This document shows positions 101-38,037 of a stretch of 64,000 bases of DNA, in pieces. Made by a program: the position numbers and the translations under genes. The stretch lies in assembly GCF_000317535.1 (NCBI RefSeq), contig NC_019757.1, forward strand, positions 2,496,501-2,560,500, given 5' to 3'. Under the pieces are notes generated by a model that saw only the letters and a program-made list of their open reading frames with translations, did not search any database and was not told where the DNA came from. The DNA is from Cylindrospermum stagnale PCC 7417 (GTDB taxonomy: Bacteria > Cyanobacteriota > Cyanobacteriia > Cyanobacteriales > Nostocaceae). How positions within the stretch are numbered: position 1 is the first letter of the stretch; every line of letters begins with the position of its first letter.

Positions 101-124
101 GGAGAGCTACTTAAGTGGCTCTCC
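101..124 (-). terminator. hairpin, likely gatB terminator
   Basis: The arms GGAGAGC and GCTCTCC enclose a near-palindromic ACTTAAGT core. Read on the minus strand the hairpin is followed by a T-rich stretch (GTTTTTCTG). It lies 119 nt downstream of the gatB stop codon, so it fits an intrinsic terminator for gatB. The bases around it (1-242) show no gene. Confidence 0.6.
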
Positions 125-242
125 AACTCATCAGGTTGCATCTACAAAGCAAAGTATAGCAGCTTAGGGATGAGGGGTCTGACCCATTTATTAGTGTCGT
201 TTTGTAAAGATCTGGTGAAAATACGGTTGGCTATACCTAGTG

Positions 243-1718
243 CTAGCCGTTGAGTTTCTTTTCCACCAATTCGTTAGTCAGCTTGGGATCAGCGCGTTTA
301 CCGGTCTTTTTGAGAACCTGTCCGACAAAGAAGCCTTTGAGGTTGGTGTTACCGTTGCGATACTTTTCTAGTTCTTTGGGGTTAGCAGCGATCGCATCAT
401 CCACAATTGGTTCTAAAATAGCAGGGTCGGTAATTAGCTCCTGACCAGCAAAAGCTTTTTCGGGAGAAACACCACTCAGTAAGTCTGACAGCTTTTCTTT
501 AGCTTGGGCATTGCTGATTTTACCCGTTTCAATGCGGGTGATCACATCGGCTAAATTGGTAGGAGTGAGAGCAATTTCTGTGATGCTGAGTTTTTGCTTG
601 TTGAGATAAGCAGCGATATCTTGAGTAATCCAGTTAGCAGCCGCTTTGGGATTTGCACCAGCAGCGATCGCACTTTCAAAATATCCTGATACAGGATGGT
701 CTTCTGTCAACACCCGTGCATCATAAGGTGAAAGCCCCAACTCACCTTCATAACGATGGCGTTTTTGGGCTGGTAGTTCTGGTAATTCACTCAGCCAATG
801 CGCTAATTCTTGATCTGTCACCTCAATCGGTGCTAAATCTGGTTCGGGGAAGTAGCGATAATCGCTAGAACCTTCTTTAATCCGCATACTAATTGTGCGT
901 TGCGAACCTTCTTCCCACAAGCGGGTTTCTTGGACAATCCTTTCCCCTGCTTCATTTGCAGCGATTTGGCGCTCTATTTCATAGTCTATCGCTTTTTGGA
1001 TAGCGCTGAAAGAGTTCATATTCTTGATTTCTACTTTCGTCCCAAAGGCCTCTCTTCCCACAGGACGGACAGAAATATTCACATCACAGCGCAGAGATCC
1101 TTCTTGCATATTGCCATCACTGACACCGAGATAGCGGACAATTCGGCGCAATTCTTGGGCATATTCTGCTGCTTCTTGTCCAGAACGCAAGTCAGGTTCT
1201 GAGACAATTTCTACCAACGGCACACCCGCCCGGTTGTAGTCTACCAGAGAATAAGTAGAACCGGAAATGCGATCGCTCCCCGCGTGTACCAATTTGCCAG
1301 CATCTTCTTCCATGTGCAACCGCGTGATTCCAATGCGTTTGCGCGTAGAATTGCCTGCATCATCTACCAATTCAATCTCTATCCAACCATGTTCTGCGAT
1401 CGGTAGGTCATATTGAGAAATTTGGTAATTTTTCGGTAAATCAGGATAAAAATACTGTTTACGGTCAAATTTGCTATATCTAGCAATTTGACAATTTAGC
1501 GCCAAACCCGTTTTCACAGCATATTCCAACACCTTGGCGTTGAGTACGGGTAAAACCCCAGGTAAACCCATACACACAGGGTCAATATTAGTATTGGGTT
1601 CACCACCAAATGCCGTTGAGCTAGAAGAGAAAATCTTGGTATTTGTACTTAGCTGGCAATGGGTTTCTAGTCCAATAATCGCTTCGTATTCAGTCTTTAC
1701 GGTGGTAGCAACAGTCAT
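243..1718 (-). CDS. gatB: Asp-tRNA(Asn)/Glu-tRNA(Gln) amidotransferase subunit B
   Basis: GatB is the tRNA-binding and glutamyl/aspartyl-tRNA kinase subunit of the cytoplasmic GatCAB amidotransferase. That enzyme converts mischarged Glu-tRNA(Gln) or Asp-tRNA(Asn) to the correct aminoacyl-tRNA, which cyanobacteria need because they lack GlnRS. The 491-residue protein has the family's usual length. Its N-terminal catalytic domain begins with IGLETHCQLST near residue 15 and contains YFYPDLPKNYQISQYD and the GVPLVEIVSEPD segment. The C-terminal third (about residues 345-490) is the helical YqeY-like tRNA-binding region, ending in FFVGQVLKKTGKRADP. The start follows an A/T-rich leader with only a distant AAGGA. 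gatA and gatC are not in the window. The gene is intact and its identity is very secure. Confidence 0.97.
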   Translation of the reverse strand: MTVATTVKTEYEAIIGLETHCQLSTNTKIFSSSSTAFGGEPNTNIDPVCMGLPGVLPVLNAKVLEYAVKTGLALNCQIARYSKFDRKQYFYPDLPKNYQISQYDLPIAEHGWIEIELVDDAGNSTRKRIGITRLHMEEDAGKLVHAGSDRISGSTYSLVDYNRAGVPLVEIVSEPDLRSGQEAAEYAQELRRIVRYLGVSDGNMQEGSLRCDVNISVRPVGREAFGTKVEIKNMNSFSAIQKAIDYEIERQIAANEAGERIVQETRLWEEGSQRTISMRIKEGSSDYRYFPEPDLAPIEVTDQELAHWLSELPELPAQKRHRYEGELGLSPYDARVLTEDHPVSGYFESAIAAGANPKAAANWITQDIAAYLNKQKLSITEIALTPTNLADVITRIETGKISNAQAKEKLSDLLSGVSPEKAFAGQELITDPAILEPIVDDAIAANPKELEKYRNGNTNLKGFFVGQVLKKTGKRADPKLTNELVEKKLNG

Positions 1719-4171: not shown

Positions 4172-6057
4172 CTTTTATTATCCAAACTAAAAAGTGGGTT
4201 CCAGTTGGAAATATGACACTTGAACGTAATGCTTATGAAGTAGTGTGTTCAAATAGTAACTATTCTATAATTGCTGGGCCAGGAGCAGGAAAAACGGAAC
4301 TACTTGCTCAAAGAGCTTGCTATCTTTTCCAAACTGGTTTATGTCCTGATCCTTATCGTATTCTTGCAATCAGTTTTAAAACAGATTCTGCTAAGAATTT
4401 AAAGGAAAGAGTAGCTGAGAGATGTTCTAAGCAAGATGCTATGCGATTTGATTCTCTAACCTTTGCTGCATTTGCAAAAAGTATGTTAGATCGATTTATG
4501 GGAGCATTGCCTGAACTTTGGCGACCAAAGTATAATTATGAATTATACTTTCCGAAAGATTCTGAATATCAAGCTTTTTTGATATCTCTTATAAAAGCAG
4601 CACCAAAAAATTTTATTAATTTACAAAATTTAAAACCTAAAGAATTTGAAAAAGATTGGGTTCTCGGCTCAACGCTCCCATTAGAGGGAATACAAACAAC
4701 ATGTATGAGAGCTATAGCTGCAAAAGAATGGTGGCATGCTTGCTTACACCTTGGGAAAAAGTCCAGGCTTACTTTCCAAATGATTGAAAGATTAGTAGAA
4801 CTACTCCTGAGGACAAACCCTCAAATTACTAATGCATTGAGAGGGACTTATTCTCATGTTTTCATGGATGAGTTTCAAGACACAACTCATACTCAATATG
4901 ACCTTATTAAAACATCTTTCCTCAATTCACAAGCCGTATTGACTGCTGTCGGTGACAACAAGCAGCAAATTATGCGGTGGGCTATGGCTATGGATGATGC
5001 TTTTAGCATCTTTGAGAAAGATTTTCAAGCAAACTCAATTTCCTTAATTTCTAATTATCGCTCTTCTCCAGAACTTGTACGAATACAGGATCTATTAGCT
5101 ATAACAATTGATCCTAATTATACGCAAGTAGAATCAAATAAAGAGAAGAACATAGCTGAAGAGGCTTGTGTAATTTGGGATTTTGAAACACAAACATTAG
5201 AAGCAGAACATTTAGCAAAAACCATATCTAACGCTATCAATATTTATCAATTAAAGCCGAAAGATTTTGTATTAGTTGTCAACAAACTCGCAAGAAGCTA
5301 TGAACCATGTTTAACAGAGGCGTTCAAAAAATATGATTTAAAAGTACGTTTAACATTACCAAATGATATCCTTGATAAGGAGCTTACTGAAATTTTTATT
5401 AACTTCCTGCGTTTTGGTTCTAAAGAAGGTACTAACCCCTACTGGTCTGACTGTAACAAAATTCTCACAAGTATTTATGGTATAGATCCAGAAGATGTTA
5501 GAAGTACAAGAGAATTACAAGATAAACTGGACTCATTCCACTTATCTTTACAAAATAAAATGACTAACTTAGATTTTAGCGACGATACACAAGTAAATTC
5601 TATCCTGGCAGATATCGAAAATTTTATTGGAAAAGATTATATCAAGCTTTCTTATCCACAATATCAGCAAGGTGACGAATATGAGAAAGTAATAAAAGCA
5701 ATTAGTAATCAACTTCAAACCAGTCATACAAACAGTACAGACAAAGCATGGAAATCAATATTAGACGATTTTGAAGGGATTGATTCTGTGCCATTAATGA
5801 CCATTCATAAAAGTAAAGGACTGGAATATCACACTGTAATTTTCGTTGGACTTGAAGACTCAGCATGGATAAATTTTAAAGAACAGGCTCAAGAATCACG
5901 TTCTACATTTTTTGTAGCCTTCTCGCGTGCAATGCAACGTGTTATATTTACTTACTGCAAACAGCGTGGTGCTAGGGATAATACTAGGGATGATATTTCT
6001 TCTCTTTATCAAGTACTACAGGGTGCAGGAGTGAAAACTGAGCAAATTCAGGTTTAA
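4168..6057 (+). CDS. gajB: GajB-like UvrD/PcrA-family helicase (Gabija)
   Basis: This is a superfamily 1 helicase partner of the upstream OLD nuclease. Motifs in order: Walker A GPGAGKT at residues 37-43, Walker B DEFQD (234-238), GDNKQQIMRW (motif III), SNYRSSPELV (motif IV), MTIHKSKGLEYHTVIFVGL (motif V) and FFVAFSRAMQRV (motif VI). In Gabija, GajB joins GajA in a large supramolecular complex and is thought to respond to DNA ends and nucleotide depletion during phage infection. The start ATG lies inside the gajA stop region (4168-4171), so the two proteins are made from one transcript. At 629 residues it is larger than the studied Bacillus GajB (about 490). An alternative in-frame ATG lies at 4213. 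No frameshift or missing motif was seen. Confidence 0.88.
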   Translation: MTFIIQTKKWVPVGNMTLERNAYEVVCSNSNYSIIAGPGAGKTELLAQRACYLFQTGLCPDPYRILAISFKTDSAKNLKERVAERCSKQDAMRFDSLTFAAFAKSMLDRFMGALPELWRPKYNYELYFPKDSEYQAFLISLIKAAPKNFINLQNLKPKEFEKDWVLGSTLPLEGIQTTCMRAIAAKEWWHACLHLGKKSRLTFQMIERLVELLLRTNPQITNALRGTYSHVFMDEFQDTTHTQYDLIKTSFLNSQAVLTAVGDNKQQIMRWAMAMDDAFSIFEKDFQANSISLISNYRSSPELVRIQDLLAITIDPNYTQVESNKEKNIAEEACVIWDFETQTLEAEHLAKTISNAINIYQLKPKDFVLVVNKLARSYEPCLTEAFKKYDLKVRLTLPNDILDKELTEIFINFLRFGSKEGTNPYWSDCNKILTSIYGIDPEDVRSTRELQDKLDSFHLSLQNKMTNLDFSDDTQVNSILADIENFIGKDYIKLSYPQYQQGDEYEKVIKAISNQLQTSHTNSTDKAWKSILDDFEGIDSVPLMTIHKSKGLEYHTVIFVGLEDSAWINFKEQAQESRSTFFVAFSRAMQRVIFTYCKQRGARDNTRDDISSLYQVLQGAGVKTEQIQV

Positions 6058-6097
6058 GTAATGATGGATATTAACAAAGATTATTATCAATAAAATT

Positions 6098-6124
6098 GTT
6101 GGGTTTCACTTCGTTCAACCCAAC
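6098..6124 (+). terminator. hairpin after gajB
   Basis: The arms GTTGGGTT (6098-6105) and AACCCAAC (6117-6124) are perfectly complementary. The hairpin starts 40 nt after the gajB stop and is followed by a weak T-rich run. The GTTGGGTT-loop-AACCCAACCTACAA form is also a dispersed element I associate with Nostoc-type genomes, so it may be a repeat serving as a terminator. Confidence 0.5.
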
Positions 6125-6198
6125 CTACAATTTTCTTGACTGAACCATATTGGATTATAGGCAATTGGGGATAAGGCAAATTTCCTTAAATCAAAAAA

Positions 6199-6242
6199 TA
6201 TAGCGATTCTAACTTTGTTAGATTCAAGTCAGAATCGCTATA
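6199..6242. terminator. long inverted repeat between convergent genes
   Basis: The 12-nt arms TATAGCGATTCT and AGAATCGCTATA match perfectly around a 20-nt loop. The element lies between the convergent ends of gajB and the PEP-CTERM gene, so a bidirectional terminator is likely. It could also be a copy of a dispersed palindrome. Confidence 0.5.
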
Positions 6243-6303
6243 CTTACGAAGTAGCTCTATTGAGTAAATTTAAGTCACTGTTTTAGCAACAACTTCTAGA
6301 AGA

Positions 6304-6828
6304 TTAGGGACTAGATTTTGTACGTAATGACCTAGAGAATCCCCTCTTTTTGAACATAAATAAAAACAGCCCGAACACAGGCGCTGCTCCAAGAATACTA
6401 CTTGGCTCTGGAACAGAAACATCGGTGTAAGAAACCGTTTGATCACTAGCCCCAGTCGCATCACTAAAAACAACAAAATTTTCGGCGTTGACTGTAAAGG
6501 CATTGGTTTCAAATTGCAAACCTAATCCTTGTTGGTCAATTCCTCCCAAGAAATTAGTCAAAACCGTTGCTAAAGAATCATCCGCTTGGGTGTAGGACTG
6601 TCCACCGTAGTTAGCAGAAATTATTAAACCTTCGGCAACAGTTACTTCTTGATCTAATGCCGCAGCAGAGTCAAAAGAAAAAGTACCTGTGAAGGGATTC
6701 TGTGCATTAGAACTAGAGAAATTATAAGTGATAGTTACAGCTTGGGCTGGTATATTTTCCCCTACTGCAAACATCAGAGTGGTTGCCGCAGTTACAGATG
6801 CTAATTTCTTGAAAATGGAGTAAGTCAT
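6304..6828 (-). CDS. PEP-CTERM sorting-domain secreted protein
   Basis: The 174-residue protein has an N-terminal signal peptide (hydrophobic core ASVTAATTLMFAV, likely cleavage after IPAQA). The middle is Ser/Thr/Asn-rich with no recognised domain. The C-terminal sorting tripartite signal is VPEPSS, then a hydrophobic helix, then basic residues KKR. Proteins with this signal are substrates of exosortase-type transpeptidases and usually reach the outer surface or exopolysaccharide. The hydrophobic core was read as ILGAAPVFGLFLFMF. After KKR a further 10 or so residues follow, which is longer than the usual very short tail. No exosortase gene is in the window. The specific role of this protein is unknown. 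Confidence 0.8.
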   Translation of the reverse strand: MTYSIFKKLASVTAATTLMFAVGENIPAQAVTITYNFSSSNAQNPFTGTFSFDSAAALDQEVTVAEGLIISANYGGQSYTQADDSLATVLTNFLGGIDQQGLGLQFETNAFTVNAENFVVFSDATGASDQTVSYTDVSVPEPSSILGAAPVFGLFLFMFKKRGFSRSLRTKSSP

Positions 6829-35323: not shown

Positions 35324-36523
35324 TTAGGAGGGAGGAAGGAGGTTTTTTAGGAAGGTTTGGCCTGCGTGATTGAGGTTGTTTTCGAGGGAAAAGGTGAGGC
35401 TGCGAACTTGGATATTGTCGCTTTTAATATTTAGTGGCTGTGTCAAGTCTTTCGGGTATATCAAAAAGGCTTGCTTACACTGTGTTGTGTTAGCGTAGCT
35501 GATCATCTGATGAATATCAGAACTTGCGGCTTTTTCTGGTGTTTTATATTTGGTATCTAAAACTGCTAGTGTTTTGCCTGTAGCAGCATCACACAATAAT
35601 AGGTCTATGCTAAACTGTCGATTCTGACCAATTTGCATTAGATGTTGCTGTTTGAAAAAATAGCCTTGTGGCGTGTTTTCCTTCAGCCATTCTGTCACGA
35701 ACATTTCATATAAACGCGCCATCTCGACAAGAAAGGGTAGGATTTTGTGATTTCCCCTTTCATTACTTGGCCCAATGTTTTCTAAAAAAAATCGACAAAG
35801 ATAATGTAATATTCGATAATCTTCATTGAGGCGGTTATATTGTCTATGAATACAGTCTGCTGAATTGCAAAGTTGTAGAGTTACCATCCCTTGCATAGCG
35901 TGATAAGCTTGTCGGACTATCAGTGATACTTTTTCTGAACAAAAACGGCTATGACCAATATTAAAAAGTGTCCAAAACAGAATTTGGTTTTCTATAATAT
36001 CAGCAGTGTGTTCTTCATATTCACATTTTAGTTTAACATTCCAAGGCTTTTGAATTATTTGTTGTAAATTTATCCTTCCTCGTGCATAGGCAAGCTGTTC
36101 AATTTTAGGTACATAAGCGCGATATAATCCTTTGCGACATCTTTCTATAATTTTCTGGGCTAATATGTAAGCTAGCCGATTATAAAAATCTTCTATAGAT
36201 TCACAATTTATCAGCCCTTCGAGAAAGCTGAAACTCTTTAAATTATAAGCATACTCCAGCATTCCCAAGAGGTTTTGAATAGGCACTTTGGGGTTAATTT
36301 TTAGAGCAAATCCGGAATTTAAAGGAATATAGCCAACCCATCCCTTAGCTTTTAGTTGCCACTTATTACGAGTTTTATAGTTAGGAAATTCCACATCTAC
36401 TTGAATTTTATATTTCTCATATAACTCAATTCCAGCTAAATCAGATATTTCATCATGCTGAAATGATTTAGTTTCATATTCAGTTATTTGAATAATTCTT
36501 GATTGTGCTGGATTTATATGCAT
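35324..36523 (-). CDS. mcrC: McrC-like subunit of a modification-dependent restriction system
   Basis: McrC is the nuclease subunit that joins the McrB GTPase to cut DNA containing modified cytosine. The 399-residue protein has the McrC N-terminal region (KWQLKAKGWVGYIPLNSGFALKI) and a PD-(D/E)xK nuclease core near the C-terminus: FSIDLLLCD (Asp), then LAVLDTKYK (D-x-K). The start ATG would overlap by 10 nt the original mcrB end, but the current mcrB stops 92 nt earlier. The gene itself looks intact. A region of dispersed repeats lies downstream (35169-35320). Confidence 0.85.
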   Translation of the reverse strand: MHINPAQSRIIQITEYETKSFQHDEISDLAGIELYEKYKIQVDVEFPNYKTRNKWQLKAKGWVGYIPLNSGFALKINPKVPIQNLLGMLEYAYNLKSFSFLEGLINCESIEDFYNRLAYILAQKIIERCRKGLYRAYVPKIEQLAYARGRINLQQIIQKPWNVKLKCEYEEHTADIIENQILFWTLFNIGHSRFCSEKVSLIVRQAYHAMQGMVTLQLCNSADCIHRQYNRLNEDYRILHYLCRFFLENIGPSNERGNHKILPFLVEMARLYEMFVTEWLKENTPQGYFFKQQHLMQIGQNRQFSIDLLLCDAATGKTLAVLDTKYKTPEKAASSDIHQMISYANTTQCKQAFLIYPKDLTQPLNIKSDNIQVRSLTFSLENNLNHAGQTFLKNLLPPS

Positions 36524-36618
36524 AGCAAATTCACGATATTCTCCCAGCGAAACTTATCTAATTTTTCTAGCTGGTTAAAGAAGTATTCCTCTAAATAAGG
36601 CTCAATTTCCATTCGCTA
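36514..36618 (-). pseudogene. mcrB 3' end behind an in-frame TAG
   Basis: After the stop TAG (36618-36616) the same frame continues for 33 codons, R-MEIEPYLEEYFFNQLEK to the segment KFRWENIV, and ends with TAA at 36516-36514. McrB relatives carry Trp followed by an E-x-x-PYLEEYFF helix at this place, so the TAG most likely replaces TGG. The old end overlaps the mcrC start by 10 nt, as expected for an operon. Confidence 0.8.
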
Positions 36619-38037
36619 AATATCTTCTATATCATCCCGTAGGTTATCAGTTAAAAAGAATGAAACACCAATTTCATAGTTTTTATCTGCTATAGCCTGA
36701 TTTACTTGCTCCAAAATCTTAATCAAATCTATAACTGCAAAACCAGTTTTTAGGTGATATTTTATTAGCACATCATAATTAGGGCGAAGTTCTATAAATG
36801 CAAAGCGGCGACGTAACGCATGATCTATTTGTGCTATAGACCTATCTGCTGTATTCATTGTACCAATAATACGCACATTTTTGGGAATGCGAAAGGTGTT
36901 ACCTCCAGCTAATGGAATTTCTCTTTCACGGTATTCTAGCAGATACATTAATTCACCAAAAACTTGTACAAGATTTGCACGGTTTATTTCATCAATAATG
37001 AGGACACAAGTATCTTGACAAGATTCAGCTTTTTTACAAAATTCTAAAAATCTGCCTGGAACAAGTGGATATGTTAAATTGCCATCTTGGCTTTGAGGAC
37101 GGATACCTTGAATAAAGTCTTCATAAGAATATGCTGGATGAAATTGTAGAAGTTCTGAAAACCCATCACCACCACTGATTAAGTATTTAGCTACTTTTTC
37201 AACTATAAATGTTTTACCTGTTCCAGGCGAACCATAAAATATGGCTTGTTTTTTGCGCTCAATTACACGTAACCAAATTTCTATATTTTGTTTGCTATAG
37301 CTAATATAATCGGCTAATTCAAGTATGGTATCAATAGGATTAATATCCAGATAATTGTAAATTTTTTGCATAGTATCATTTGGAATTCCTAATAAAAATA
37401 ATGAAGATAATACTTGTAATATTTCTAATATTTGAGCTATTAACTGTTCAAAACTTATTTGCAGAATTTTTTCTTTGGATATAGTAATTTCTCCACTAAA
37501 TTCATCAAAGTTAGCTTCTTTTAAAAAATGTTTTAGAGCATGTAGGGGTTGATTATCTTCGGGGGAATAATTATATATAGCATGATACTTTAGTTTGATT
37601 TTATCAAAGATATAGTCTAACTCATCCTGATAAAGTTCACAGTTTTTATAAAAAATATTTCCGTAATCACTACTATGCTTATCTATACTAAAGCCAATTT
37701 TTATCCCTTCATTATTTAGTTTTATGAATAATTCGGGAGCGCAGAGTTTACTATTCAGCCGAAAATCATAATATAAACAAAATGGTCTTTTATCATTTTC
37801 ATTAAAGGGATGTAAAAATGCGGGAGAATGCCAGTTATGATTTCCTTTTAGATGATTTAATAATGCTTTTGGCAATATTTTATACACCTCTTCGACAAGA
37901 GATTCAAATGGCTTTTCGAGATATTCCCAAAAGTCGTTATTTTCAATATAAGTAAATATATTATTACCATTAATCTCTTCAAGCATTACAAATGTTTTAC
38001 TTATAAAAAAGCATCTAGAATTTATATTCTTTACCAT
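36616..38037 (-). CDS. mcrB: McrB-like GTPase/AAA+ subunit, prematurely stopped
   Basis: McrB recognises modified DNA and uses GTP to drive translocation with McrC. The 473-residue product has an N-terminal DNA-recognition region of about 250 residues without a domain I recognise. The AAA+ module follows: Walker A YGSPGTGKTF, Walker B CVLIIDEINRANLVQVFGEL, the GTP-specific MNTADRSI and the Arg finger region HALRRRFAFIEL. The coding sequence ends at TAG after LRDDIEDI; the natural end would add 34 residues (507 total). The lost part is the last helices of the AAA+ lid, so activity may be weakened or lost unless the stop is read through. It lies 41 nt after the BadF-like gene on the same strand. 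Confidence 0.85.
   Translation of the reverse strand: MVKNINSRCFFISKTFVMLEEINGNNIFTYIENNDFWEYLEKPFESLVEEVYKILPKALLNHLKGNHNWHSPAFLHPFNENDKRPFCLYYDFRLNSKLCAPELFIKLNNEGIKIGFSIDKHSSDYGNIFYKNCELYQDELDYIFDKIKLKYHAIYNYSPEDNQPLHALKHFLKEANFDEFSGEITISKEKILQISFEQLIAQILEILQVLSSLFLLGIPNDTMQKIYNYLDINPIDTILELADYISYSKQNIEIWLRVIERKKQAIFYGSPGTGKTFIVEKVAKYLISGGDGFSELLQFHPAYSYEDFIQGIRPQSQDGNLTYPLVPGRFLEFCKKAESCQDTCVLIIDEINRANLVQVFGELMYLLEYREREIPLAGGNTFRIPKNVRIIGTMNTADRSIAQIDHALRRRFAFIELRPNYDVLIKYHLKTGFAVIDLIKILEQVNQAIADKNYEIGVSFFLTDNLRDDIEDI

Follow-up and report, generated by a model that had tools for sequence, protein, structure and literature searches.

The McrBC system of Escherichia coli K-12 (structures 6HZ4 and 6UT6; PMC6624300, PMC7680126) combines an AAA+ McrB carrying the GTPase signature MNTADRS with an McrC that follows it and carries a PD-(D/E)xK-like motif. 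The AAA+ protomer of the published McrBC structures includes the small subdomain (PMC7680126). We analyzed a related operon, for an anti-phage restriction system of the McrBC type, in the heterocyst-forming cyanobacterium Cylindrospermum stagnale PCC 7417. It is located within a 64,000-nt stretch of DNA (hereafter, the window) that is part of the 7.0-Mb contig C2 in a 7.61-Mb genome assembly (4 contigs, 99.99% complete). The locus shares with E. coli both the signature-bearing AAA+ McrB and the motif-bearing McrC after it. In contrast, its McrB has a different N-terminal domain and is 34 residues short, and the system is probably dead. A literature search for McrBC in Nostoc or for this locus found no open paper. 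The features of the locus are collected in Table 1 and discussed below with respect to the stop codon that shortens McrB.

Table 1. Features of the mcrBC locus (positions in the window).
Feature	Position	Strand	Remarks
mcrB with read-through frame	36514..38037	-	frame opens at 38037; original 3' end at 36514
mcrB truncated open frame, 473 aa	36619..38037	-	Pfam AAA_5, NCBIfam McrB PRK11331, phmmer
mcrB protein parts			variable N-terminal domain, residues ~1-230; McrB-type AAA+ GTPase core, ~249-473
in-frame TAG, mcrB codon 474	36616..36618	-	TGG in FACHB-282; Trp in cyanobacterial homologues
post-stop mcrB remnant, 33 in-frame codons	36517..36615	-	remains of the McrB C-terminus
original mcrB TAA	36514..36516	-	overlaps the mcrC start (36514-36523, 10 nt)
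possible re-initiation frame, 32 codons	36517..36612	-	ATG two codons past the TAG
mcrC, 399 aa, full length	35324..36523	-	start at 36523; Pfam PF10117, full profile

The mcrBC operon and its closest relative

The identity of both products is supported by motifs and by profile searches. Walker A, Walker B, and the signature of the mcrB product read GSPGTGKT, VLIIDEINRANL, and MNTADRS, as is characteristic of McrB-type AAA+ proteins. The NCBIfam McrB profile PRK11331 matched residues 249-454 (7e-41, though under the equivalog cut-off), and phmmer aligned the product with E. coli McrB (6hz4/6ut6) at 3e-43. The adjacent McrC matched the whole PF10117 profile (E = 6e-46) and contains the PD-(D/E)xK-like stretch FSIDLLLCDAATGKTLAVLDTKYK; mcrC is single-copy, and a second McrC that could complement it was not found in the genome. 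The AAA+ small subdomain of McrB is incomplete, as its C-terminal helices are cut by the TAG at codon 474.

A previous reading of the sequence alone had described such an in-frame TAG near the end of mcrB, with a frame that stays open for 33 codons behind it and ends in a TAA overlapping mcrC by 10 nt, and all of these features were recovered. The 33 sense codons behind the TAG are RMEIEPYLEEYFFNQLEKLDKFRWENIVNLLCI, and the overlap, exactly 10 nt long, is ATGCATATAA. The frame encodes the C-terminal helix that had been expected there: its residues align with the C-terminus conserved in every cyanobacterial homologue and in E. coli McrB ((I)EPYLEEYFF in the window, IAPLLEEYFF in E. coli), and thus its openness is not a matter of chance.

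The closest relative found at the locus is Cylindrospermum sp. FACHB-282 (NZ_JACJRJ010000022.1), which has a xylulokinase-like gene and other neighbors on the mcrC side in common with the window, as well as the same 10-nt overlap (mcrB 119..1087, mcrC from 1078). Its McrC is about 94% identical, and the C-terminal part of its McrB is nearly identical. In this pair comparison, dN/dS was 0.23 for mcrC and 0.21 for mcrB codons 224-473, pointing to purifying selection. In contrast to the window, the mcrB frame of FACHB-282 is AAA-only, 322 aa long, and located at the contig end, and the sequence upstream of the AAA core differs. This frame starts 118 nt from the contig end (L036:1-118), the N-terminal domain being missing or replaced; the mcrB frame of another locus, L049, is short too (323 codons). 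Divergence between the window and FACHB-282 over 36619-37368 (mcrB codons 224-473) is mosaic, with 11 differences in codons 380-473, most of the ~94 differences in codons 224-379, and unrelated sequence farther upstream. This mosaic pattern suggests that the N-terminal part of mcrB may have been exchanged by recombination.

Codon 474 and the sequence behind the stop

Screening of 217 genomes of the family revealed 53 with an McrB relative at E <= 1e-20. Among the matches listed, TAG at codon 474 occurs in the window alone, the other 52 genomes with an McrB lacking it; the viral contigs checked do not carry it either. Every other aligned cyanobacterial copy (about 40 distinct sequences) has Trp at this position, embedded in the near-invariant block D-I-W-x-M-E-I-E-P-Y-L-E-E-Y-F-F, and an alignment of 26 shows hardly any variation in the C-terminal motif W.ME.EPYLEEYFF. 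Val of E. coli McrB is apparently aligned with Trp 474, as is Ile in two Bacteroidota, with the helix motif after it kept in both cases. FACHB-282 has TGG at codon 474, one base away from the TAG of the window, which agrees with the single G-to-A change that had been proposed. The sequence-only reading had also reasoned that close relatives with the same stop would mark the short form as normal. The close relatives do not stop there: because they all have Trp and no other genome ends at codon 474, the short mcrB is not the normal form.

Stops or truncations in mcrB were also observed in other Nostocales (G137/L029, G175, G204, and G139/L073). These genes resemble the mcrB of the window in carrying inactivating lesions, and a McrC match is kept in L029 and L073; they differ in the positions and stop codons involved, none having TAG at codon 474. 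In L073 (Nostoc sp. NMS8 MAG, ~4974-6415), a 90-codon C-terminal mcrB frame directly precedes a full-length mcrC match, a further case of mcrB decay with mcrC retained. A different rearrangement, a tandem duplication of the last part of mcrB before mcrC, was noted in Planktothrix rubescens (L067:5382-5965).

The old 3' end of mcrB had been described as intact, which holds for the reading frame and for codons 475-491, whereas codons 492-507 have drifted from FACHB-282. The 51 nt directly after the TAG are identical in the two strains, which is unremarkable: with 11 differences per 282 nt locally, such a stretch has a probability of 0.13. Codons 492-507 hold 7 non-synonymous and 3 synonymous changes, compared with 2 non-synonymous and 9 synonymous in codons 380-473 (Fisher p = 0.03), a weak contrast in that the comparison was post hoc, chosen once the differences were known, and intact genes also vary at their extreme C-terminus. 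Two residues of the window's tail, V502 and L504, are absent from every relative, the others being mostly polar at both positions (A, D, E, H, K, N, Q, S, or Y at 502; E, G, K, N, Q, R, S, or T at 504). At least 7 non-synonymous tail changes were seen in 12 of 101 intact pairs, mostly more diverged than the window and FACHB-282; of the listed intact pairs of similar divergence, most have 0-4 and one has 10. The substitution pattern is a modest, post hoc sign that mildly favors relaxed constraint behind the stop. The drift of the tail likewise mildly favors a genuine nonsense mutation that has already aged a little, rather than a sequencing error or a maintained read-through.

Alternative readings of the TAG

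We consider it likely, with good confidence, that the TAG is an ordinary nonsense allele of the Type IV restriction gene mcrB, that is, a real and most likely recent loss of function. Three options had been put forward from the sequence (recent inactivation, a read-through or regulatory stop, and a sequence error), and the strongest support is for recent inactivation by a change from TGG to TAG. What counts against it is that the rest of mcrB and mcrC are intact and no other decay was seen, an absence that fits a recent event but would equally fit an error.

A sequencing or assembly error, under which codon 474 would really read TGG and leave mcrBC intact, draws on the same open operon with its purifying selection in the pair comparison and on the one-base distance from the FACHB-282 codon. 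We regard it as unlikely, since the tail behind the stop has drifted, with unusual lineage-specific changes that would be unexpected if the stop were false. The contiguity and completeness of the assembly argue against an error as well. A lone G-to-A outside a homopolymer is also untypical of short-read errors.

The short McrB might instead work, alone or together with a 32-residue tail peptide produced by re-initiation. The ATG for such a peptide lies two codons past the TAG, and the frame it opens terminates at the native mcrC-overlapping TAA, so that coupling to mcrC could persist. However, conservation of the lost segment extends from cyanobacteria to E. coli, and the cut falls inside a helix. 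The ATG did not evolve for re-initiation: the same Met is conserved in intact relatives, which makes its position coincidental, and no clear Shine-Dalgarno sequence precedes it at the usual spacing. A working short form thus appears very unlikely, and its particular version in which immediate re-initiation yields a separate C-terminal peptide able to make good the loss in the truncated motor, with mcrC still coupled, is less likely still.

Partial decoding of the TAG, which would supply full-length McrB in regulated amounts, would be in line with the frame open to the original TAA and the unchanged codons 475-491; it is highly improbable, and the earlier suggestion of a read-through or regulatory stop was not borne out, since none of the 69 tRNAs found (all those over the Rfam threshold were examined) has a CTA anticodon to read UAG, RF1 (prfA) is intact in the genome, TAG is a normal stop that ends 10 of the 39 window ORFs, the RNA around and after the mcrB TAG folds no better than its shuffles (z = +1.2), the aligned cyanobacterial relatives do not share the stop, and the last 16 codons look less constrained. 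An odd, unclassified ARAGORN tRNA call (L123) was considered as a suppressor and rejected, as its anticodon loop carries CAT. Elsewhere on contig C2, 21 tRNA genes are clustered on one strand within 2.2 kb (L114:116-2322; G000:C2:3383115-3385321), an arrangement that resembles the trn operon described in Anabaena PCC 7120 (PMC10272220).

Probable loss of McrBC function and its possible consequences

The structural effect of the nonsense mutation was assessed on an AlphaFold2 model of the read-through mcrB frame (mean pLDDT 72.9, 82-93 in the C-terminal region), which matched E. coli McrB (6ut6/6hz4) with a best Foldseek E of 1e-17. The modeled C-terminal helices span residues 466-485, 490-494, and 498-504, and residue 474 lies within the first of them, in the AAA+ small subdomain, at a pLDDT of about 90. 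The TAG removes the last 34 residues, comprising half of helix 466-485 and the two short helices. Loss of McrB function is to be expected because these helices belong to the small subdomain, a part of the AAA+ protomer. Judging from the model, the truncated McrB is very probably unable to fold or to form a working hexamer, and the McrBC restriction system is probably inactive in this strain.

In the sequence of events that we propose, a G-to-A transition would have turned the conserved Trp codon 474 into TAG in the lineage of the window, presumably once this lineage and that of FACHB-282 had separated. An McrB product without its last 34 residues would form no working hexamer, leaving McrBC inactive. 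Translation of mcrC may also drop, as the early stop would abolish its coupling to mcrB; a ribosome restart at the ATG behind the stop might restore reach to the mcrC overlap.

The loss of mcrB could be neutral or selected. We considered incompatible methylation as a driver, a newly acquired C5-methyltransferase being a target of McrBC. The idea looked plausible because two such enzymes of this genome, one chromosomal (L109) and one on the small contig C1 (L110), are absent from FACHB-282. Across the 217 family genomes, however, both are found together with mcrB about as often as chance predicts (7 observed vs. 7.6 expected and 16 vs. 16.9), so co-occurrence gives the idea no support.

Restriction genes are frequently lost, and the nonsense allele of mcrB is one more instance that opens no new question. 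If the mutation is real, a methylation-dependent barrier against foreign DNA has probably disappeared from this strain; this would matter for how readily the strain can be transformed and how sensitive it is to phages.
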